Shown here: positions 31,797 through 64,000 of the stretch, one piece after another | How positions within the stretch are numbered: the stretch's first letter is position 1 | Layout: the number at the start of each line of letters is the position of its first letter | Made by a program: the position numbers and the translations under genes | The notes under the pieces: generated by a model | The model's database searches: none | What the model saw: only the letters and a program-made list of their open reading frames with translations | Told to the model about the DNA's origin: nothing | Assembly: GCA_030737835.1 (NCBI GenBank) | Contig: JAUJYN010000103.1 | Coordinates: 1-64,000, forward strand | DNA from: Acorus gramineus | Taxonomy: Eukaryota > Streptophyta > Magnoliopsida > Acorales > Acoraceae | Length of the DNA: 64,000 nt | Direction of reading: 5' to 3'

Positions 31797-33195
31797 ATAG
31801 TGATGATACTCAGCCTATAATATAAACCCCACTTATAGGCTCCATGAGGTGTCATCATTTCATTGGTTGGTTTGTTTGGTTTGTTGACTTTTTCAAAAAA
31901 TTGTAAAATGACAAAATACAAATTTGCCCTTCATTAAAAATTTGTCTTATTAACCCAAATCCCCCCATTTTCTCTATTTGGTTATGACTCTTCCATGTAA
32001 ATCTTAAAATCTATTTACCTATTTCAAATTTTGAATTTTGAAATCATTACCTAAATTATAATTGAACCTAGATTATCGAAATTATTTTCATTAAAATCCT
32101 TCAAATGGCTCATTTTCTCTAGGTAGTTATTGTATTCAAATTTAAATAAAAAAACACATATAGTTAACATATGAAACAATTACATTTTATATTGGTAGTT
32201 ACAAATACATTTCTTAAATGTTTACATCTCTCACAACGATTTGTTACATTTTATATAAAAACTGTTACATTTATATAGATGGAACAAACAATTACATTTA
32301 CCTAAATGTCAAACAGTTACATTTACTATTTGAAATTATCTATTTCAATTTCTAGTGCACTGCCTTCCAAAGAAAATGTATCAGAATCCTCTGTAAAAGT
32401 ATGTACTTCACTGTTACATTTATACGTCATTTCTATTTGCATTGTTAAAATAAATGCACAACATGAGATAATGTTACATTTCAGAGTGTTACATTTATGA
32501 ATGTAACAAAATTGTGTAAATGAATATTCGAGTTCGGGAGTCTAATATAAACATCACACGAACCAGTAACAATTAAATGTAACAATATCAAAATTACATT
32601 TATGAAATTATAACGAAACAAATATAAAAAAAGTGTGAAATAGTGATCAAAACATAAAAAAAAATTCATTTTTTAAATTGAAACATGTAACATAGATTGA
32701 ATATTTGATCATCAAAAATTTAATTTCAAATTCGATGTGACTTTCATTCAATAAGATAAATAAAAAATAAAAAAACAATTGACAAACTTGATCCGAAAGA
32801 GAGATCAATTTCAGGATTGCTACGAATAAATTATAGGGATTAATGATTTTACACAATGCAAAGAAGAAGAAATACAGTAATTAATTAATGAAATCTCCAC
32901 AATTCTAGGAATAAATTAAATCGTTTTCCTTGTTTAGAGGTGGTTATCAATTAGAGGGTATAATAGGTAATGTCCTATTACCACATCATGGGCCTGTGAT
33001 GGGGCCTGAAAAGTTGGAGGAATCATTATTGTTAAGTTTAATGATTTTACATTAATTAATGAAATCTCCACAATCCTAGGAATAAATCAAACCGTTATCC
33101 TTATTTAAAGGTGGTTAACAATTAGAGGGTATAATAGGTAATGTCTTTATTGCCCCATCATGACGTGTGATGGGGTCCGAAAAGTTGGGGTTTAG
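31797..33195. mobile_element. Non-autonomous MULE-like element related to the Ulp1-MULE at 57 kb
   Basis: Its left end (about 31797-31930, with CTCCATGAGGTGTCATC) aligns with the left end of the large element (about 57107-57240, with CCCCATGAGGTGTCAAC), including the word order before and after. The right part is an imperfect inverted match: GAGGGTATAATAGG at 32953 and 33125 mirrors CCAATTATACCCTC in the 57-kb terminus. The interior (32160-32620) is dense in TGTTACATTT words, as in the 57-kb element. There is no coding capacity. Both borders are approximate, and no 9-bp duplication was identified. Confidence 0.6.
32883..33190. repeat. Direct duplication (about 135 bp, 173-bp offset) at the right end of the MULE-like element
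   Basis: The stretch TTAATGAAATCTCCACAA through GAGGGTATAATAGGTAATGT to GAAAAGTTGG occurs at about 32885-33017 and again at about 33055-33190 with a few percent divergence. It may be a duplicated terminal segment. The second copy ends about 70 bp before the DUF2828 start codon. Confidence 0.85.
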
Positions 33196-33260
33196 AAATT
33201 ATTATTTAAAAACATAACCCTCCCAAAAACCTCGTCTCCTCCAAAACCCTAAAAAAAAAA

Positions 33261-35243
33261 ATGAAATCACTATTGAAGATTCGTCGATTCCATGCGTTGG
33301 CGAGTGAAAGCACGACGCATGCCATGGCCCCTCCTCGTCGTCTTCTCGGCCCTCCGGAGATCCACATCAAACCGTCTGATCCACCCCCCTCGAACTCTCC
33401 ACCGCCCGATCCCTTCATGGATCTAATGACGGAGCGTTTCAACGACCCTCCTCTGCCGAAGACCCCCCCTCCTCCGATGGGCCGAACGGAGAACAACTCG
33501 GCCACCTACCTCTCCTCGGGGAACCCCTGCCTCGACTTCTTCTTCCAAGTCGTCCCCGACACGAAATCGAAAACCATAACGAGACTGTTAAAATCTGCCT
33601 GGGATCGCGATCCGTTGAAGTCGTTGAAGCTGGTCTGCCACTTGCGCGGCGTCCGCGGCACCGGCAAGTCCGACAGGGAGGGCTTCTACTCCTCCGCTCT
33701 CTGGATCCACGATCACCACCCCAAGACCCTCGCCCTCAACGTCGCCTCGATCGCCGGATTCGGTTACATCAAGGACCTCCCCGAGATCCTCCACCGGATC
33801 CTCAACGGCGCCGACGTTCGGGAGGTACAGAAGCGCCAGTATTTTTCATGGAAGTCCAAGGGATTCCTGGGATTCAAGAATTGCAAGAAGGGCAAGCCCG
33901 GTCACAAGACCCCAGAGGAAGTCAAGGCGGAGGCGTCGGCGAAGCGGAAGGAGAAGAGGGAGAAGGCGGCCGCCAAGGCACTCGAGAGGTACGCGCGCGA
34001 TCCCAATTATCGGTTACTTTACGATCTGGTGAGCGATTTCTTCGCGGAGTCGCTGGTCACCGATCTCGAGCGGCTGAGATCGGGGAAGCTGAACGAGATC
34101 GGCCTCGCCGCGAAGTGGTGCCCGTCGCTCTACTCGCCCTACGACTGCTCCACCCTCCTCTGCGAAGGGATCGCCACGCGCGTCTTCCCTGTTGAGTCCT
34201 ATCCGGAGTACGCGGAGATCGAGGAGGCGTATTATGTTTACAGAGTCCGCGACCGCCTCCGCAAGGAGGTGCTGGTCCCGCTGCGGGCGGCGCTCGAGCT
34301 CCCGGAGGTGTACATGGCCGCGAACAAGTGGGGGTCGCTGCCGTACGAGCGCGTCGCGTCGGTGGCGATGAAGAACTACAAGTGCCTTTTCATGAAGCAC
34401 GACGGGGAGCGGTTCGGGAAGTATCTGGAGAGCGTGAGGAAGGGTGAGAAGAAGATCGCCGCGGGGGCGCTGCTTCCGCACGAGATCCTCGCGGAGGCGT
34501 ACGATGAAGAAGTTGAGGACGTTGCGGAGCTGCAGTGGCGGAGGATGGTGTCGGACCTGCAGGAGAAGGGGAAGCTGAGGAACTGCATCGCGGTGTGCGA
34601 CGTTTCGGGGAGCATGGAAGGGACGCCGATGGATGTGTGCGTGGCGCTGGGGATGCTCGTGGCGGAGCTGAGCGAGGAGCCGTGGAAAGGGAAGGTCATC
34701 ACCTTCAGTGCAAGGCCGCAGCTGCACGTGATCAAGGGGGACACGCTCGCAAAGAAGATGTGCTTCGTGAAGAAGATGGACTGGGGTATGAACACGGATT
34801 TCCAGGCGGTGTTCGATCGGATACTGGAGGTGGCGGTGGAGGGGAGGCTGGAGCCGGAGAGGATGATAAAGAGGGTGTTCGTGTTCAGTGATATGGAGTT
34901 CGATGAGGCGTCGAGGGTGCGGCCGTCGTATTACATGGGGTATGATGAGGCGTCGGATGATGAGGCGTCAGTGAGATCGTGGGAGACGGATTACATGGTG
35001 ATAAGGAGGAAGTATGAGGAGAAGGGGTACGGGTCGGTTGTGCCGGAGATCGTGTTCTGGAATTTGAGGGACTCGCAATCGATTCCGGTGACGAGCAAGG
35101 ACAAGGGGGTGGCGCTTGTGAGCGGGTTCTCGAAGAATATGATAAAGGTGTTTTTGGAGCGTGATGGGGTGATAGACCCGGAGATTGTGATGGATAATGC
35201 CATTGCCGGGGAAGAGTACAGCAAGTTAGTCGTCTTTGATTGA
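33261..35243 (+). CDS. DUF2828 / von Willebrand A-like domain protein (intronless)
   Basis: A single uninterrupted 660-aa frame, very GC-rich. After a short Pro-rich leader come CLDFFFQVVPDTKS and LKLVCHLRGVRGTGKSDREG, which I recognise as the plant DUF2828 family (L728-like proteins, often intronless). A C-terminal vWA-like half carries a MIDAS-type motif DVSGSM (D447, S449, S451), VITFSARPQ, and FVFSDMEFDEA near the end. A Lys/Ala/Glu-rich helical segment lies around residues 220-245. The first ATG at 33261 adds 21 residues before a second in-frame ATG at 33324 in better context (GCCATGGCC), so either may be used. The molecular function is unknown; the layout recalls TROVE/Ro60-type proteins, but that is only an analogy. 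Confidence 0.93.
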   Translation: MKSLLKIRRFHALASESTTHAMAPPRRLLGPPEIHIKPSDPPPSNSPPPDPFMDLMTERFNDPPLPKTPPPPMGRTENNSATYLSSGNPCLDFFFQVVPDTKSKTITRLLKSAWDRDPLKSLKLVCHLRGVRGTGKSDREGFYSSALWIHDHHPKTLALNVASIAGFGYIKDLPEILHRILNGADVREVQKRQYFSWKSKGFLGFKNCKKGKPGHKTPEEVKAEASAKRKEKREKAAAKALERYARDPNYRLLYDLVSDFFAESLVTDLERLRSGKLNEIGLAAKWCPSLYSPYDCSTLLCEGIATRVFPVESYPEYAEIEEAYYVYRVRDRLRKEVLVPLRAALELPEVYMAANKWGSLPYERVASVAMKNYKCLFMKHDGERFGKYLESVRKGEKKIAAGALLPHEILAEAYDEEVEDVAELQWRRMVSDLQEKGKLRNCIAVCDVSGSMEGTPMDVCVALGMLVAELSEEPWKGKVITFSARPQLHVIKGDTLAKKMCFVKKMDWGMNTDFQAVFDRILEVAVEGRLEPERMIKRVFVFSDMEFDEASRVRPSYYMGYDEASDDEASVRSWETDYMVIRRKYEEKGYGSVVPEIVFWNLRDSQSIPVTSKDKGVALVSGFSKNMIKVFLERDGVIDPEIVMDNAIAGEEYSKLVVFD

Positions 35244-35968: not shown

Positions 35969-36925
35969 GGGTTAAAGACATTTAAGTCCCTACAAACATG
36001 GAAAAACCCATATAAGTCCCTACTAAAATTGGGACAGACGTACGAGTCCCTGAAAACTCAAAAAAACCCAATTATCATCCCTGAGTTAAATTTCTATCCA
36101 AATTTAACGGAATATTCCTAAAATATTCCATCACATATAATTGTGTAGACATTGAAGTCTTTATAAATAATCATAAAGACAAATTAGTCCCTGCAAAAGA
36201 TAAAATTGCCCATAAAAGACTTTTACATTAAATTGTGTATACATTGTAGTCCCTATAAATAATCATAAAGACAAATTAGTCTTCGCAAAAGATAAAATTG
36301 CCCTTAAAAGACTTTTACATGTAATTGAATAGACATTACAGTCCTTATAAACAATCGTAAAGACAAATTGGTTCATCTAAAAGACAAAAATACCCTTGAA
36401 GTATTTTTACATTTAATTGTGCAGACATTGCAATTTAAAAATTAAATACCCTCTAAAAGACTGCAATTTCTACACAATTAAATGTAAAAATTTTTCAGGG
36501 GCATTTTTGTCTTTTACATGTACCAATTTATCTTTACGATTATTTATAAGGACTGTAATGTTTATCCAATTAAATGTAAAAAATTTTAAGGGGTAATTTT
36601 ATCTTTTGCAAGGACTAATTTGTCTTTATGATTGTTTATAGGGACTGCAATGCGTACACAATTTAATGTAAAAGTCTTTCAGGGGTAATTTTGTCTTTTG
36701 CAGGGACTAATTTGTCTTTATGACTGTTTATAAGGACTTCAATGTCAACACAATTATATGTGACATAATATTCTGGGAATATTCCGTTAAGTTTGGATGG
36801 AAATTTAACTCAGGGATGATAATTGAGTTTTTCTGAGTTTTCAGGGACTCGTACGTCTGTCCTAATTTTAGTAGGGATTTATATGGGTTTTCCTATGTTT
36901 GTAGGGACTTAGATGTCTTTAACCC
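35969..36925. mobile_element. Foldback / long-TIR element (957 bp) with internal repeats
   Basis: The left arm starts GGGTTAAAGACATTTAAG and the right arm ends CTTAGATGTCTTTAACCC. The arms are inverted copies over at least 150 bp, and the symmetry continues inward through repeated units with AAAGACAAATTAGTCCCTGC. The whole element is close to one large palindrome centred near 36450. Flanks TTAAATTTT (35960-35968) and TTTAATTTT (36926-36934) match at 8 of 9 positions, suggesting a 9-bp duplication as made by Mutator-type transposases. Non-coding. Confidence 0.85.
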
Positions 36926-56318: not shown

Positions 56319-57106
56319 TTTGGCAGGGAAAGCTTTGGTTCTTGAAGCACGTACAAGTAGCTGATTTATTCGTTTCATACCAATTTAACACTTTACCCGG
56401 ATCATGGAAATTTAGTTTTTCAAATTGAGAAATTATGAAATGAACAACAGCATCTGCCAATTGTGAATATATATAGCCATCGGAGATTGATCTGAGTCAA
56501 ACTTCTTGGATCACTGCAGTTTGTAACTACAATGAAGTCTTGATTTCAAATGAAATCATCAGTGAAGAGAGTTTCGACACTATCAGACACTAGTTTCTGT
56601 TACAAGTGCACATATTCAGGGTCAAATACCAAAAATAAATAAAGTCATTTTAACCCCATTTTCACTCTAGACCCGCATCACTTCTTTGGGGCCGGAGCAC
56701 CCACCCAGGAGGTGTTCCCAGATTCCATAAATAATATTTTTTTTTGTATTAAGTACTTCAAATTTGTTTTATCTTTGTAATTACCAACTTTTTCCTTTTG
56801 AACATGTATAGACGCCCCATTTTAAGAATTCGTCTAGGACCCATTTTAAGAGTCGGCCCTGCTTACAAGGAATTGAACCATCTGTTAAAACCATCTTCGG
56901 TTGCAAGGATGCCTGCATCAAAGTTAACATCTAACCAAACAAAATAAAAGTACATATATTAGTACGCGTATCCATGCAAAAAATAAACTTGTTTGTGTGT
57001 TTGTTTATGGGCAATTTCTATTTTTGACCGCAATAATTTTTTGATTATAAAATTAGCATTGGACCGGTTTTAAAAGTCAGCGCTTCAATTTTAAATTATT
57101 ATTTTC
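56319..57106. other. RIBA3 3' flank and TE-like remnants
   Basis: 3' UTR of RIBA3, then a GGGGCCGGAGC / GTCGGCCCTG-bounded stretch (about 56680-56870) that looks like a diverged hAT-type MITE. No gene. Confidence 0.45.
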
Positions 57107-57950
57107 AGTGGTGATACCTAGGCCCCAAAATATAAGCCTCACTCACAAGCCCCATGAGGTGTCAACCTGTCATTGGCTCATTATTTCACTTTTCAAAAAG
57201 GGTAACAAAGCAAAAACCAATTATACCCTCTCATAAAAACTACTCGAAAACACGCGCGCGTATCAAAGAAATCCGGATTCGACGTCCACGATTAAACACG
57301 ACCGTCACTTTCGGCGAGCCAAAACGATCTTTCAAATTCTCTCACCACCAATATTCACGTTCGTTGCAGAAGGGGAAAAAAAACCCTAAATCTGTCTCTA
57401 CGCATCGTTTTTTCTTCCCCGAACTGCTTGGATTCTCTGGAAAAACAAAATGGCGACAAGCGGTAAGAAAACCTTGTTTTCCTTTATTTCCCGAATTTCT
57501 TTTTTTTTTTCTGTGTGTTTGAACGAAATGCTTCGTTTTTCCAAAATAGGGTTTCGAAACAGCTCCTACATTCGTTTGAACTGTACATATGACAGATTGT
57601 TTTAGGGTTTCGATTAGTTTATGAAGATCTTGGCAACATAATGTAACAGATTGTTTACAATACTAATAAATTAAGAGGTGCAAATGTTTTTATTTCTTTT
57701 TTATCAAATGTTTTGATTTTTCCAAACAGGGGATTCGAAGATTCAAAGATTTAACTTGCAGAGTAAATGTAACATATCATATTAGGTTTTACATAATAAA
57801 TGTAACACAAATTGGATTAGCTTTTTTTATTAGGGTTTAGATGTTTTGATTGAATGTAACAAAATATTAAATGTGCTTCTGTAAATGTGACATTTGCACT
57901 CTAAATGTAACAGATTGTATTAGGTTTTGGATTACGGTTTAGATGTTTTT

Positions 57951-58545
57951 GATCAAATGTAACAAAATGTGACATTTGCACTCCAAATGTAACAGATTTG
58001 GTTTTGGAATACGGTTTAAGTGTTTTTGATCAAATGTAACAAAATGTGACATTTGCACTCTAAATGTAACAGATTTGGTTTTGGAGGTTTTCATATGAAA
58101 ATATTAGGTTTTGGATTACGGTTTAGATGTTTTTTGATCAAATGTAACAAAATGTGACATTTGCACTCTAAATGTAACAGATTTGGTTTTGGAGGTTTTC
58201 ATATGACAATATTAGGTTTTGGATTACGGTTTAAGTGTTTTTGATCAAATGTAACAAAATGTGACATTTGCACTCTAAATGTAACAGATTTGGTTTTGGA
58301 GGTTTTCATATGAAAATATTAGGTTTTGGATTACGGTTTAGATGTTTTTTGATCAAATGTAACAAAATGTGACATTTGCACTCTAAATGTAACAAATTTG
58401 GTTTGGGAGGTTTTCATATGAAAATATTAGGTTTTGGATTACGGTTTAAGTGTTTTTGATCAAATGTAACAAAATGTGACATTTGCACTTTAAATGTAAC
58501 AGATTTGGTTTTTGGAGGTTTTCATATGAAAATGTGACATATACA
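57951..58545. repeat. 107/108-bp minisatellite in Ulp1 intron 1
   Basis: Copies of the unit starting GATCAAATGTAACAAAATGT begin at 57951, 58028, 58136, 58243, 58351 and 58458. Each holds several AAATGTAACA or GTGACATTTGCACT words. From 58028 copies alternate between TTTAAGTG and TTTAGATG versions, so the real period is about 215 bp. Confidence 0.9.
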
Positions 58546-58567
58546 TAATAAATGTAACACAAATTGG

Positions 58568-58770
58568 ATAAGATTTCTGTATACCCATCAATGACCTAAG
58601 AAATTACAAGTAAATACATTAAATGTCGCATATGGTTTGTAATATTCACAACTGTTACATTTACTCAAAAGTTGTTACATTTATAAGTACATACTCAATA
58701 GTTGTTACATTTACCTAATAGTTGTTACATTTACTCAATAGTTGTTACATTTACTCAATAGTTGTTACAT
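58568..58770. repeat. Left arm of a 200-bp inverted repeat (antisense of the intron 6 / exon 7 junction)
   Basis: ATAAGATTTCTGTATACCC through TTAAATGTCGCATATGG to repeated ATAGTTGTTACATTTACTC is the reverse complement of 61836-62061, with only a few differences. It lies in intron 1 of the Ulp1 gene. Confidence 0.92.
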
Positions 58771-60020
58771 TTGCAAACTTCATATAATCATGTTCATTCT
58801 TTTTTCAGAGAACAATAGGTCACACAAAGCTGCAAATAAGAAGGGAAAATCAATTCAACCACACTTCAGATCATCCTTGTATAGGATTTATGAAATATTT
58901 TCCACTCTGAAACTGAAGGAAAGACATCTGAATATGCTACAAGCAACACCTTTCTGGAGTCTGTTCAGTGGGTTGTTGGACAAGAAGTATGATTGTAAAC
59001 AAGCTAAAAAGAACGATGAAGATGTAGTGCGGATAATTCAATGTTATGATCCACATTCTGAATCTTTCAAGATTGGTGGCAAAACTTTGAAGATAACTCC
59101 CACAGAAATAGACATTATATTGGGCATCAAATCTGGCAAAAAAGAAGTAAAAGGTAATCAGAATTTCCTGTTTTGAATTACATTTAGTTTTCCAAAAATG
59201 TAACATCATGATCATGATTAATGGGTTTGACTGCACTTTGTTACAGTGAACTATGGCACCAAGCCAAACACAGAGTTCATAAAACGAAGATTTGGGTCCG
59301 TGAGCAGACCTAATGCTCCATATATCAAGGAGCAACTTCTGGTTGCATTGGAGGGAGAATCAAGCCATGACCTCAACGATTTCACGAAGTTGTGCTGCCT
59401 GTACTTGTTTGTGGGGTTATTTTACACAAACAGTGGTCACACCATAGGGTGGGCTACCTTTCAGTATTTAGAGGACATCAACAAATAAAAGAGTTTGATT
59501 GGTCAACATCAATACTAGATTTACTGATGAAGTCAATTCATAAGCATCAGAATAACCCAGCAAGTGTGACTGGCTGTGTTGCTCTGCTACCTGTAAGTTA
59601 ACAACAAATTGTTTTAGTTGAAAACTGCAATCAATATATTTACTGACACTGTTCTTTAACTTCTATGCAGTTCTGGTTATGTGAGCACACAACATTGATT
59701 TCTCCCTCACGTCCATCAGTGTTCCCAAGGTTCAAGAAATGGGATTTGAAAAAATTCCACAAAACCATGTCAAAGATAAACATTCGCAAGTTTAAAGCCT
59801 CACAGGTTATAATTTGAATACTCATAACTCCATTACTGATTCAGTAAAACAATTATTCACATAACTCTATTATAGAACATTAGTATACAAACAATGTAAC
59901 AATAATATTATAAATGTAACAATATAAATATGTGCTACATTGTCTCACACACTATGTGTTGATAATGTAACATTCTGTGATTTAGAAATTAACATATTAA
60001 TATTAGCATTCTAGTTAGGT

Positions 60021-60147
60021 TACATTTATAAGTACATACTCAATAGTTGTTACATTTACCTAATAGTTGTTACATTTACCTAATAGTTGTTACATTTACC
60101 TAATAGTTGTTACATTTACTCAATAGTTGTTACATTACTCAATAAAT
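60021..60147. repeat. Third array of ATAGTTGTTACATTTACC words in Ulp1 intron 4
   Basis: Five or six tandem 19-bp-type units of ATAGTTGTTACATTTACCT occur in the same orientation as the array at 58650-58770. Without the flanking junction sequence this is a separate expansion. Confidence 0.9.
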
Positions 60148-61835
60148 GGATGTATCTCTTATATTTGGAACAACTAACTATCATTGCATGTTAAATTGTT
60201 CAAAACTTGTTACATTTGTCAAGCTGTCTCCATTCCATATGTTATGTTGTACCAATATAGCAGATATTATTAACAATAGTAATATGAGATGAAAATGTAA
60301 CATATCTTTATAAAAGTTTGGTTATGTCTAAACTGCACTGATGCAATTAACTATTATGATCATAAATGAAATAAATGAAAATGTTATGACTTTGTTACAT
60401 TTTGACTAATATAAACTTGTCTCTTACATGAAACAGTTATCCATAGAAGAAATTGAACCAAGGCTGATAGAGCTGCAGCAGCTGGGGGTAAGGGCCTCTG
60501 CACATACTGAAAATGAAGAAGAAACGTTGGAACACAATGAAGAAGATTTGACTGGTAGTGGGGAGACTTCATCAGATAATGAGGAATCCAATGAAAAAAG
60601 TGAGAATAACCCGTCAGGTGAAGAGGAAATTGATAGAGAACTTCTGAATAGTGAAGGTGGGGGTGATTTAATACATAGTGGCTGGGGGGATATGAATGTC
60701 TGTGCTGATAGTAACAATGAAGACAATCAACCAGTAATGGAAGATGATTGTGGGGGGCAGTTTGGCGACTCTGCAATTGAACGTCAGAGTGAAGGAGTAC
60801 AAATAAGAAACTTGTCACCAGATAATGTTAAAAAAACTCTTGCTATGGAAGCCCTAGAAGAAGAAAACACAAACCTCAAAATAACAGTGGCAGCACATGG
60901 GATTGACATGCTGAGAATTATGGCAGATAACAGTAGTAAGAGTTTCAGGTTGAAAACAAGTGCCCGCAATTTAGATTGTCTTTTCAAGAAATGTGGTTTA
61001 CTAAGGAGAAAGATCCGTGGTTTAAATCAACAGATAGGAAAGTTGAAAACTGTGAACTCTAAATTGAAAAAAAAAGTCAGTGTAAGAGATGATGACATAA
61101 AAGGTTACAAAGATCGAGAAAAAGGCTATCTGAGTGTCATTGCAAAACAGAAACAGATAATCTCTGACATGGAAGACAATGCCTCTGTGCATGACATTAC
61201 ACAGAAGACAGCTTTGGATGCAGAGATCATGAGTCTGAAAGAACTGATCACTGAGAAAGAGAACTTGATAGCACAGCAATCTGTAATGCTAGATTTCCTT
61301 CAGACACAACACCCATCACAGGAAGCAAAACCCCTTGATGTGATTCCACTGAACTCATATACACCAGATATTCAATATGTGGAGGTGGACATGGGAGAAG
61401 CAACACATGAAAAAAAAAGCAGACAAGGTCAATGGTTAGAAGAATCAAGATGAGGGATAGGAAAGCACCCATAAACCCTGAATTTCAATACTCTGATGCT
61501 GGAAAAGGAGCCAAAAGAGTGGCTATTGGAGTTCCACAAGAGAAAGAAACCAAAAAACAGAAATTTAGTTTCAGAATTCCAAAAAATAATGTAGCCAAGG
61601 CACTGGGACAAAAAGATGTCAAGATATTGAGGCAAATAGTTGGCCTCACCTCTGGAAGGTAATTTTACTGTCATTAATTGTTCTGAATATCACATCTTCA
61701 AATAGTTGTTAAATGTAACTCTTTTTGTATATGCAGTGGACCAATTTGGCAAGGGGGTCTTTCAGTTATTCATTTTGAAGATGTCATGTCAATATTGAAA
61801 GAGGATGAAATTTCCAGTAATGTGAGTATTTACTT

Positions 61836-62061
61836 ATAATGTAACAACTATTGAGTAAATGTAACAACTATTGAGTAAATGTAACAACTATTGAGTAAAT
61901 GTAACAACTATTGGGTAAATGTAACAACTATGCAGTATGTACTTATAAATGTAACAACTGCTTGGTAAATGTAACAATTGTGAATATTACAAACTATATG
62001 CAACATTTAATGTATTTACTTGTAATTTCTTAGGTCATTGATGGGTATACAGAAATCTTAT
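61836..62061. repeat. Right arm of the 200-bp inverted repeat (intron 6 and start of exon 7)
   Basis: Tandem TGTAACAACTATTGAGTAAA units, then the 3' splice site TTTCTTAG and the first 28 bases of exon 7. Because the coding junction is native here, this arm is the likely source of the copy at 58568-58770. Confidence 0.92.
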
Positions 62062-62780
62062 ATGATGAGCAAGGAGTTCCAATGCGGATCAACCGATCTT
62101 CATTTTTCGTTTCTGCAAACATCTCTCAGTCACTGCAAAATGAAAAACAGCGTCACCTCTTCAAGGTGCTAGTGAAGGAAAGGATAGATCTCAGCCTGTA
62201 TCGGTACATACACTTCCCTCTGCATAATAAAGGGCATTGGACTTTGGCGGTGTATGACATAGTTGAAAACATATGGAGACACTACAATTCACTACTTCAA
62301 GAGTATGCAGACATGGACACACATTTGCAGATGGTTAACAAATTGGTAATCACTACTTAAAGTTTCTGACCATATATATGTTTAACTTAATTTAACATCT
62401 CATGCATATACATTATAATTTACAGATGGAAACATTCATTGAACATTATGAAGGAATTGAACCTGGACAGATCATCTCTGTTCAGAATGCACCGCAGCAG
62501 CCTGATTTTTCGTAAGTTCATTTACTTTGTTAGGTAATTTCATTATATATTAAAGGAACATACTGATTCAAATTTTTTTTTTAACTGCAGCATAGAGTGC
62601 GGAATTGTGGTCATACATGTAATGACTCAGTATGCCTTACAAACAGATATATCATCGGTAATGACTCGCCAGATGTGCAGTAGTACCAGAGCCCAAATAA
62701 TACATAAGTTCATCAACGACAAAATAAGGACGTACACAGAAGAGGATCACAAGTTGTTTTCTTTGAATATTGATGATTGA

Positions 62781-63688
62781 ACTCTTAGATTTTTGTTGTG
62801 TCTGTCTGTAAATCGAACAAATAGCAATTTTGGATGTAAACAGCTTATAACAAATGTGTTTGGAGCCATGAAATGAAAATATAGATATATTTTGTCTGAT
62901 GCTAAGTTGTGATTTACTATTCATGTGTTTCCATGAACAACATGTGTTGTAATAACGTTCATGTAATATAACAGTCAATTAACAATGCAAAGCATGTTAC
63001 TGTGTATATGTAAATGTAACTAGCCAACAATGTCACAATCTGGGTATAGTAAATGTAATTACAATGGTTAAATTGTGACAGATACTTCTAATGCAACCAA
63101 CTATTGATTTGATTGTTTTAGGGATAGACCCTGTTACATACAGGAAATTGTTACATTTCTCTATGTAACAAAAAACTCAGAGTGGTTCAAAGTACAACAT
63201 AATATTGAATATTAAATCTGGAATCTACAAAACATAAATCACTTATGCAACAATATGAATTTAAAAATGTGACAGATGTCTCTGATACAATCAGTTAATA
63301 ACTCGATTGTAATACAGGTACACACAACACAAATACACACTGTTACATATCATTAAACCTGTTACATTTTCTAAATGTAACAAAAAACTCAAATGATTCA
63401 TATTATAACATAATATTGAATATTAAATCAAGCAACTGCAAAACAGACTTCACTTATGCATCAATATGAATTTCAAAAGGGACAGATGTCTCTGATACAA
63501 TCAATTAATAACTCGAATGTAATACAAGTACACACTGTCAATGAATTAAAATTTGTTACATCTTCAAATGTAACAACAACCCAAGACTGATACATTGTTA
63601 CATTATTGTGGAAATTAAACCTGAAAAATATAAAAAGAAAATCAATTGAGACAGAACAAATCACTTATGTATCGATCTGCACATTGCT
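62781..63688. other. Convergent spacer between Ulp1 and transposase genes, rich in TGTTACATTT
   Basis: 3' UTRs of both genes. Two related stretches (about 63070-63250 and 63290-63480) share GTGACAGATGTCTCTGATAC-type words and paired TGTTACATTT / AAATGTAACA copies, so the spacer itself is partly duplicated. No further ORF looks real. Confidence 0.55.
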
Positions 63689-64000
63689 TTATGTATTCTT
63701 CACGTGCTTAGTCTTCGGCCTGTAAACCTTTGCTGCCTTCCTTTTTGTCGGTGGTCGCCCTTTGCTTCGAACTTTTTTAGGTGAATGTACACATCTAACC
63801 GGCGATGGTGTTACGCCAACAGAACTACAGTTAGCATTCGCAGATGAAAAATGCAACAAAGATTCCTGCAAAGAATCCATGTATTGTGTACAGAAGACAT
63901 ATTTTTCTTCAGATACAACTGCAGCTTCCACAACATATGAAAATTTGGAATATAATTCATTATGCCTCGACATGTGATCATTTGGCATGTTGTCCAAATA
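63689..64000 (-). CDS. FAR1-like MULE transposase, C-terminal part (runs off the right edge)
   Basis: The minus-strand frame is open from the window edge to a stop at 63689. The visible 100-odd residues include HNELYSKFSYVVEAAVVSEE, a helical segment seen near the end of FAR1/FHY3-type proteins. The basic tail SPKKVRSKGRPPTKRKAAKV resembles the KGRP-type C-termini of FAR1-related transposases. The catalytic domain would lie beyond the window. The call rests on C-terminal style and on the neighbouring Ulp1-MULE gene, so it is a reasoned assignment. Confidence 0.6.
   Translation of the reverse strand, partial: YLDNMPNDHMSRHNELYSKFSYVVEAAVVSEEKYVFCTQYMDSLQESLLHFSSANANCSSVGVTPSPVRCVHSPKKVRSKGRPPTKRKAAKVYRPKTKHVKNT

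Follow-up and report, generated by a model that had tools for sequence, protein, structure and literature searches.

A ten-base word repeated through the non-coding parts of a Ulp1-carrying MULE in Acorus gramineus: a candidate address tag for family-specific anti-silencing

The end of the window (the whole 64-kb stretch of Acorus gramineus DNA analysed here) is occupied by the left part, 57107-64000, of a 10.5-kb MULE which extends from about 57106 to contig position 67639. The first-pass annotation had taken 57107..64000 for the element itself; a MULE with a Ulp1 gene is indeed present, but that span stops where the window stops and the element continues to 67639. At least two genes, converging on a common spacer, were recognised in the full element; KIU MULEs are defined by three coding genes, and a fast-changing third may have gone unrecognised here. 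The features are listed below, with copies of the ten-base word TGTTACATTT (complement AAATGTAACA) given as “words”.

32242-33060, no strand assigned: diverged right-end piece of a related element, 6 words
57106-57130, forward: left end, CAGTGGTGATACCTAGGCCCCAAA..., a break point common to copies, from comparison of ends and flanks
57450-62780, forward: Ulp1 gene, VANC-like candidate, from splice sites, exon reading frames and copies
57450-57462, 58809-59153, 59247-59592, 59671-59805, 60437-61658, forward: Ulp1-gene exons 1-5
61737-61821, 62034-62345, 62426-62511, 62591-62780, forward: Ulp1-gene exons 6-9
57463-58808, forward: intron 1, 22 words; 108/215-bp tandem repeats at 57996-58533, 20-bp array at 58653-58772
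58868-59482, forward: N-domain in exons 2-3, weak similarity to the plant mobile domain and DUF1985, both under Pfam cut-offs
59154-59246, forward: intron 2, 1 word
59806-60436, forward: intron 4, 8 words; 20-bp array at 60042-60136
61822-62033, forward: intron 6, 6 words; 20-bp array at 61838-61931
62034-62780, forward: Ulp1 (Peptidase_C48) domain, 34.1 bits against a cut-off of 20.7
62781-63688, no strand assigned: spacer separating the convergent genes, 4 words; repeats of 211 bp
63689-64000, reverse: 3' end of the MULE transposase gene (FAR1 and MULE domains), its open frame running on to contig position 65992

The earlier description of a Ulp1-carrying MULE is borne out by the Peptidase_C48 match and by that of the transposase to PF10551 (E 3.2e-35), the latter accompanied by a FAR1 match (9.7e-11). 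The left end matches the right end, at 67639, imperfectly and in inverted orientation; no long inverted terminal repeat was found in the window element, only this imperfect match of about 24 bp. The flanks carry a putative target duplication of 9 bp, mismatched at one base (TATTATTTT/TATCATTTT). Among the eight elements in which such a duplication was sought, 8/9 bases match in the window element, in L018 and, less surely, in L022; four others have AT-rich or shifted matches alone, and L023 has none.

Splice sites of the Ulp1 gene were read by eye. The window copy has two single-base frame breaks, and all six other copies from which nine exons could be extracted are also broken, so that there is no working copy among them. 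The N-domain falls below the cut-offs for both DUF1985 (23.0 bits, E 8.5e-5, cut-off 35.1) and the plant mobile domain (27.8 bits, cut-off 34.9), and among eight N-domain members, four give a weak DUF1985 match at E of 0.1 or less, 0.0036 being the best value. No N-domain relative of solved structure was found at E up to 10, using one read-through sequence and an 8-row profile. Exon 2, judging from dN/dS values of 0.07-0.40 in the 15 of 17 pairs for which the ratio was computable (with dS above 1 in several pairs), is under purifying selection. In the Ulp1 domain, His-Asn-Cys replaces the usual His-Asp-Cys, and the same three residues occur in the class-C relative L047. When the Ulp1 part was compared with solved structures, chance-looking interleukin-18 matches ranked above SENP-type proteases; a trimmed query gave a weak SENP8 alignment (E 1.3), under two unrelated proteins. 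A. thaliana VANCs have DUF287. Assignment as a VANC21-type protein was set aside because no DUF287 match was found up to E = 1 in the pieces scanned.

Within 57107-64000 the word occurs 41 times on either strand (5.9 per kb), against a mean of 0.13 and a maximum of 2 in 1000 dinucleotide shuffles, so the earlier report of dozens of copies in both orientations stands. So does its rarity elsewhere in the window: the other 57.1 kb has 6 copies (200 shuffles: mean 0.37, maximum 2), all at 32242-32575. The “related element” proposed near 32 kb is related and does carry words, but its sequence shows it to be a diverged fragment from the right-hand portion of such an element: 32338-32786 aligns with parts of 65900-67093 and 32955-33060 with 67557-67666 (longest matches 69-82%). 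Genome-wide there are 13,020 exact copies of TGTTACATTT, against 2,653 of its reversed control (0.0067 per kb). In the first 100 genomic places listed (contig C1, up to 2.58 Mb), 19 copies are isolated (0.0074 per kb) and the others clustered, the two being told apart by eye. The comparison of density with background that had been named beforehand thus came out in favour of the earlier reading: the word is far sparser in shuffles, in the rest of the window and in the genome. A literature search with TGTTACATTT found no transposon paper, judging open-licence papers by their titles; other searches of open-licence papers brought up none on these words, judging by titles and the starts of abstracts.

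The whole element contains 55 words, 53 of them non-coding, and 37 of the 55 lie inside introns of the Ulp1 gene, whose 2,734 nt of coding sequence in this copy has none. Exons 2-9 from the window and 11 further copies (some partial) lack even the 8-base word. The introns had been named as 1, 3, 4 and 6; by the present exon model intron 3 has no words, intron 2 has one, and the other three are as named. Word numbers differ among close copies, and several have fewer words in intron 4.

The N-domain has at least 194 exon-wise matches in this genome. Fourteen relatives were picked by hand for their protein identity, with their words still unseen; by word they form three classes: A (TGTTACATT), B (AGTTACATT) and C (TGTATCTKA). 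The names B and C were given on the strength of the first six loci, and the eight that followed needed no further class. Each relative has 6-26 nine-base words of its own class and 0-2 of the others, with shuffle maxima of at most 3. Exon-2 identity to the window element is 65-78% in the five class-A relatives, 58-61% in the four of class B and 54-56% in the five of class C. The difference between A and B is one of a single base: GTTACA is preceded by T at 92 of 101 sites in the five class-A relatives and by A at 41 of the 45 sites of class B. Genome-wide, the other two words are enriched as well (class B 7,687 against 2,979 reversed, class C 13,284 against 2,849 reversed). It had been proposed to ask whether the word is kept while its surroundings drift; this is so in class-A relatives L034, L039 and L043, where intron 1 with words masked is unmatched to the window and 12, 18 and 16 nine-base words are present, but more distant relatives carry other words. 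Same-strand neighbouring words are about 19-20 bp apart in all three classes. With all spacings pooled there is an apparent periodicity near 10-10.5 bp (p at most 0.04), lost once tandem copies are reduced; helical spacing was not significant among the distinct spacings then left (p 0.05-0.74). Words also form inverted pairs. In class A their starts lie 14 bp apart (13 of the 47 convergent pairs no more than 60 bp apart, from 6 of 14 sources) and in class C 11 bp apart (4 of 5 loci); these pairs may be shared by descent.

Gene-less elements also carry the word. Of the six examined, L017, L022-L024 and L027 each retain the two ends together with 5-16 ten-base words, the remaining one, L029/L030, has 2, and no clear coding match was found in any of the six; some gene-less derivatives, by these matches, are element ends plus words. 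Loci L010-L024 were chosen for a 30-mer holding two words and L025-L031 for their position at or beside word clusters, and they are therefore no test of word conservation. Among the cluster loci, L026 and L028 match neither element ends nor body, and L025 and L031 match one end alone.

What reads the word, if anything does? MULE transposases bind end motifs. One possibility is that the word is a site for the transposase (FAR1) extended from the ends into the element, and the transposase does have a FAR1 DNA-binding domain. Of the 14 words beyond the window, the 163-nt intron of the transposase gene holds two, the opening codons of its frame another two, and the DNA upstream of the frame the other 10. 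This explanation is unlikely. The outer 0.66 kb or so on the left and 0.82 kb or so on the right have no ten-base word, most words are in the other gene, and the word differs in the class-C elements L038 and L045, whose transposase cores are 94% identical to that of the window element; the array is thus not a terminal or subterminal transposase array. In the same two elements the N-domain exons are 55% and 62% identical and the Ulp1 exon 65%. Class-A cores are 79% (L034, with 4 stops) and 63% (L046, with 7 stops) identical to the window's, and FAR1 identity is 77-78% in class C, against 78% in same-word L034 and 86% in L046. With core and FAR1 identities so uneven across classes, the transposase does not sort the word classes; on these comparisons word class goes with the N-domain of the Ulp1 gene (in the N-domain tree, class B is not a clean clade, L035 standing apart from L040, L041 and L044). 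Module exchange between elements is possible, and the transposase may still play some part. The extended binding array first suggested is the best reading; of the two readers then offered for it, transposase or Ulp1-related, the second is the one supported.

A second possibility, also improbable, is a passive satellite: with nothing to read it, a short sequence would have multiplied along the introns by tandem and segmental duplication. Much of the copying of the word was, to judge from the repeats, done by duplication. Besides the 20-, 108/215- and 211-bp repeats there is a repeat of about 225 bp upstream of the transposase, and intron 6 with 28 nt of the next exon has an inverted duplicate (95%) in intron 1 at 58568-58772. 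A satellite does not readily account for information confined to about 10 positions in representatives with dissimilar flanks (six core positions being fixed by the search), for retention of the word in the three distant relatives without intron-1 similarity, for class-specific words, including a clean one-base difference, or for word-free exons in the Ulp1 gene. Least likely of all is a site for a host transcription, splicing or chromatin factor exploited by the element: an AT-rich 10-mer in introns and 5' regions could be read by a host protein, but sister elements of one genome differ in word, following the element's own protein, and words occur in gene-less derivatives too, and in both orientations. 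Transposase array, satellite and host factor were all rejected as first choices on this evidence.

The explanation preferred here, with a probability of roughly 0.7, is that the word is a family-specific address tag, read by the Ulp1-gene protein in a sequence-specific anti-silencing system of VANDAL/VANC type, a precedent absent from the first-pass annotation. According to PMC5735166, VANC21 and VANC6 each work through a short motif of their own (YAGTATTAY and AGTTGTCC/AGTTGTAC for VANDAL21 and VANDAL6), arranged in tandem arrays in non-coding regions, and the transposase is more conserved. There as here, a MULE-type element pairs a conserved transposase with a second gene that changes faster, a short motif crowds the introns, intergenic stretches and other non-coding DNA, tandem arrays vary between copies, and related families differ in motif. 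Different motifs alongside a more conserved transposase are seen here for class C against class A. VANDALs also have degenerate terminal repeats (PMC6446971 and PMC10398659), comparable to the imperfect match in the window element. The VANDAL21 and VANDAL6 motifs differ from all three words, and unlike VANC21 and VANC6 the candidate gene described here has a weakly matched DUF1985, no DUF287 found and a Ulp1 domain. PMC13317346, citing Sasaki et al. 2022 (EMBO J 41:e110070), reports that Ulp1-carrying VANC genes recognise motifs in non-coding regions, and a passage of it also names Ulp1-containing MULEs of melon, grapevine and rice, with no mention there of word arrays. The last share MULE plus Ulp1 domain with the window element; the Kaonashi/KIU MULEs, compared by description in that paper, share the Ulp1 domain in a VANC-type MULE gene, and motif recognition is reported for their group. 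The overall pattern, as far as the DNA tells, is thus that of VANDAL/VANC anti-silencing, with the Ulp1-carrying form already in print. The present analysis supplies the words of this genome, their sorting into three classes and the single-base step between A and B.

Most likely the protein made from the Ulp1 gene recognises the word and lifts silencing from its own family. Arrays, their non-coding placement, three N-domain-linked classes, retention of the word after intron-1 drift, purifying selection on exon 2 and gene-less elements built of ends and words can be read in the DNA; from the Arabidopsis precedent we infer binding of the word, removal of methylation and a contribution from the Ulp1 domain. 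The second-gene protein, with its weak DUF1985/plant-mobile N-domain and Ulp1-type C-terminus, would bind the TGTTACATTT arrays of its own family, in introns, in the spacer and upstream of the transposase, and those of its gene-less derivatives. Once bound, it would strip silencing marks, leaving element and derivatives expressed and mobile, and the Ulp1 domain might help, for example via SUMO-modified chromatin factors. Subfamilies would have shifted word together with protein, each system acting mainly on its own family.

There is about an even chance that sister MULE families of this one genome hold at least three diverged Ulp1-type self-recognition systems, two with words one base apart and a third with its transposase core almost unchanged. 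How do transposons escape silencing without harm to the host? How do a DNA-reading protein and its word change together? If the proposal is true, an anti-silencing protein's change of DNA specificity could be followed stepwise, readers of address words would be re-targetable within one genome, and gene-less derivatives would live on ends and address words alone. With its three classes of word, its switch of one base and its derivatives lacking genes, this one genome would provide ready-made pairs for comparison. The findings also suggest that what looks like a satellite, a short word recurring along introns, can serve as a functional tag, and that word identity might be a means of sorting transposon families.

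The ten-base word TGTTACATTT, counted on both strands, is strongly over-represented in the window's portion of the Ulp1-carrying MULE, as the first-pass annotation had claimed: 57107-64000 holds 41 copies (5.9 per kb), where 1000 dinucleotide shuffles averaged 0.13 and never exceeded 2, and the remaining 57.1 kb of the window hold six, every one at 32242-32575. Across the 398.6-Mb genome (in which the window is contig C15, 1-64000), the exact word occurs 13,020 times versus 2,653 for its reversed control. Among the first 100 matches listed, which cover 2.58 Mb of contig C1, 19 words appeared isolated by eye, at about the control rate, and the others were clustered. The 30-mer TGTTACATTTACTCAATAGTTGTTACATTT, holding two words, has 170 exact genome matches, and its control has none.

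Copies break off on the left at a common point, ~57105-57107, and a single copy, L018, sets the right end of the element at position 67639 of the contig, giving a length of ~10.5 kb. Its ends, CAGTGGTGATACCTAGGCCCCAAA and CAATAATGATTCCCAAGCCCCAAA, match imperfectly over ~24 bp, and the putative 9-bp duplication flanking the window element has one mismatch. Open frames just beyond the right end (L009:4070-7533) resemble a copia-type retrotransposon by eye. The element carries two convergent genes:

ATG at 57450, plus strand: Ulp1 gene, nine exons, splice sites placed by eye
65992 to 63689, minus strand: FAR1-MULE transposase open frame with one in-frame intron, from frame reading and Pfam

The Ulp1-gene product runs from an N-terminal domain (N-domain, exons 2-3) through an acidic, coiled-coil-like middle to an Ulp1-type C-terminus. 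Peptidase_C48 scores 34.1 bits, exceeding its Pfam cut-off of 20.7; the plant mobile domain (27.8 bits, cut-off 34.9) and DUF1985 (23.0 bits, cut-off 35.1) fall under theirs, and Pfam gave no DUF287 match up to E = 1 in the pieces of this product that were scanned. The reading frame of the window copy is broken at two places by a single base each; the six other copies from which all nine exons were extracted are broken as well, and no intact gene was found among the seven. The Ulp1 domain (62034-62780) has His-Asn-Cys both in the window gene and in L047, the one relative from the class C described below in which these residues were inspected; in both, His and Cys are kept and Asn stands at the place of SENP8's Asp (HYNSL versus HYDSH, in a weak alignment).

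The whole element holds 55 words, distributed as follows:

Ulp1 intron 1: 22 words
Ulp1 intron 2: 1 word
Ulp1 intron 4: 8 words
Ulp1 intron 6: 6 words
Spacer between the two genes: 4 words
Transposase intron (163 nt): 2 words
Transposase open frame, opening codons before the FAR1 match: 2 words
Region upstream of the transposase: 10 words

The 2,734 nt of Ulp1-gene coding sequence contain none, nor do the outer ~0.66 kb (left) and ~0.82 kb (right) of the element contain the ten-base word; the seven-base TGTAACA is present at 57642. Exons 2-9 of the window element and of 11 copies, some partial, lack the 8-mer TGTTACAT as far as they were recovered. Its number per intron differs among copies: intron 1 holds 17-26 in 9 copies, intron 4 holds 5-11 in 11 copies and intron 6 holds 5-9 in 10 copies. 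The arrays also differ in repeat unit: 20, 108/215 and 211 bp, with one of ~225 bp in the region upstream of the transposase. One stretch, 61857-62061, comprising the intron-6 array and 28 nt of exon 7, recurs inverted in intron 1 at 58568-58772 (95% over 205 nt).

An N-domain protein search of the genome gave at least 194 exon-wise matches (150 of 442 candidates scored), from which 14 diverged loci were hand-chosen to span protein identity, their words still unseen; all 14 were retained. Counts of k-mers in the first six yielded three distinct dominant words, and the remaining eight added no further class.

Word classes among the 14 diverged relatives, with exon-2 identity
Class A, TGTTACATT: L033, L046, L034, L043, L039; 65-78%
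Class B, AGTTACATT: L035, L040, L041, L044; 58-61%
Class C, TGTATCTKA: L036, L037, L038, L042, L045; 54-56%

Each relative has 6-26 words of its own class per 3.2-3.5 kb (shuffle maxima at most 3, 200 shuffles per locus) and 0-2 of the others. A single base separates class A from class B: the one preceding GTTACA, which is T at 92 of 101 sites in the five class-A relatives and A at 41 of 45 class-B sites. Genome-wide, class-B words number 7,687 versus 2,979 in the control, and class-C words 13,284 versus 2,849; among the matches listed, one class-B cluster of eight words (C1:5031508-5034374) encloses an independently found Ulp1 match at C1:5032296. Some words form inverted pairs. Of 47 class-A convergent pairs no more than 60 bp apart, 13 are spaced 14 bp start to start; these come from the window element, the word-bearing piece near 32 kb and loci L026-L029; class-C divergent pairs occur at a fixed 11 bp (L036-L038, L045). 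Such fixed pairs could be dimer sites or could reflect shared descent.

The word is kept although its surroundings have drifted in L034, L039 and L043. With words masked, these align with the window across exons 2-4, short introns 2-3 included, and near where exon 5 starts, and none matches it in intron 1; despite this loss they keep 12, 18 and 16 nine-base words, respectively. Parts of intron 1 remain alignable in L033 and L046, which are nearer relatives. Where representatives have dissimilar flanks, the information is confined to about ten positions, the six core positions being fixed by the search. For N-domain exon 2, dN/dS is 0.07-0.40 in 15 of 17 pairs, two giving no value and several having dS >1.

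Judged by sequence comparison, the word tracks the N-domain of the Ulp1 gene better than it tracks the transposase, because transposase cores are 94% identical to the window's in two relatives with another word and diverged in relatives with the same word, and FAR1 identities overlap. Class-C L038 and L045 share the window's layout (N-domain, Ulp1 exon, transposase on the opposite strand); it is their cores that reach 94%, against 55% and 62% for the N-domain exons and 65% for the Ulp1 exon. L036, also class C, has 87% over a partial core. The cores of class-A L034 and L046 are at 79% with 4 stops and 63% with 7 stops; FAR1 identity is 77-78% in class C, 78% in L034 and 86% in L046. Module exchange between elements could produce the same pattern. 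In the N-domain tree, classes A and C form separate groups (support 0.998 and 1.000); class B does not form a clade, with L035 placed apart from L040, L041 and L044.

Words also occur in gene-less derivatives. The six short two-ended elements inspected were picked for holding words, and so serve as illustration rather than as a test. Five (L017, L022, L023, L024, L027) are 1.4-1.9 kb long with 5-16 ten-base words each, and L029/L030 is 1.4 kb with 2; their sole protein match is 19 residues in L027 (E 0.8). All words of the fetched stretch lie within the element at L022, L023, L024 and L027, and L017 has 11 further words outside it. Of the other loci, likewise chosen for their word clusters, L025 and L031 show one element end only, and L026 and L028 have no match of at least 40 bp to the element. 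In the window, the 32-kb piece is a diverged right-end fragment. A 171-bp direct duplication at 32880-33188, including right-end-like sequence, lies a short way upstream of the long open frame at 33210-35243; adjoining arrays of 92-bp repeats (36133-36430 and 36459-36761), ~28 bp apart, appear mutually inverted by eye.

Sasaki et al. 2022 reportedly named the sequence of the motif, its density and its helical periodicity as determinants, and are said to have described how DUF1985, DUF287 and Ulp1 were gained and lost. In Arabidopsis, VANC21 binds YAGTATTAY in non-coding parts of VANDAL21 (introns, intergenic and terminal regions) and thereby causes methylation to be lost, VANC6 targets carry AGTTGTCC/AGTTGTAC, and VANC motifs often lie in fast-changing tandem repeats, the transposase being more conserved (PMC5735166). 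The same non-coding regions are described as RdDM targets (PMC10398659), and a 2026 review, citing Sasaki et al. 2022, states that some VANC genes have an Ulp1 domain (KIU) and recognise motifs in their own group (PMC13317346). This kind of system is thus already in print, and the present element is most likely one more member of it, using words of its own. The main weaknesses of a VANC-like reading are the DUF1985 score under cut-off, the missing DUF287, the frame breaks in every copy with nine exons extracted and the sample of 14 relatives. Under that reading, the Ulp1-gene product most likely binds the arrays that its own family carries and, once bound, would remove silencing there, with demethylation and a part for the Ulp1 domain both putative. 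Between sister families, word and reader would then most likely have changed together.
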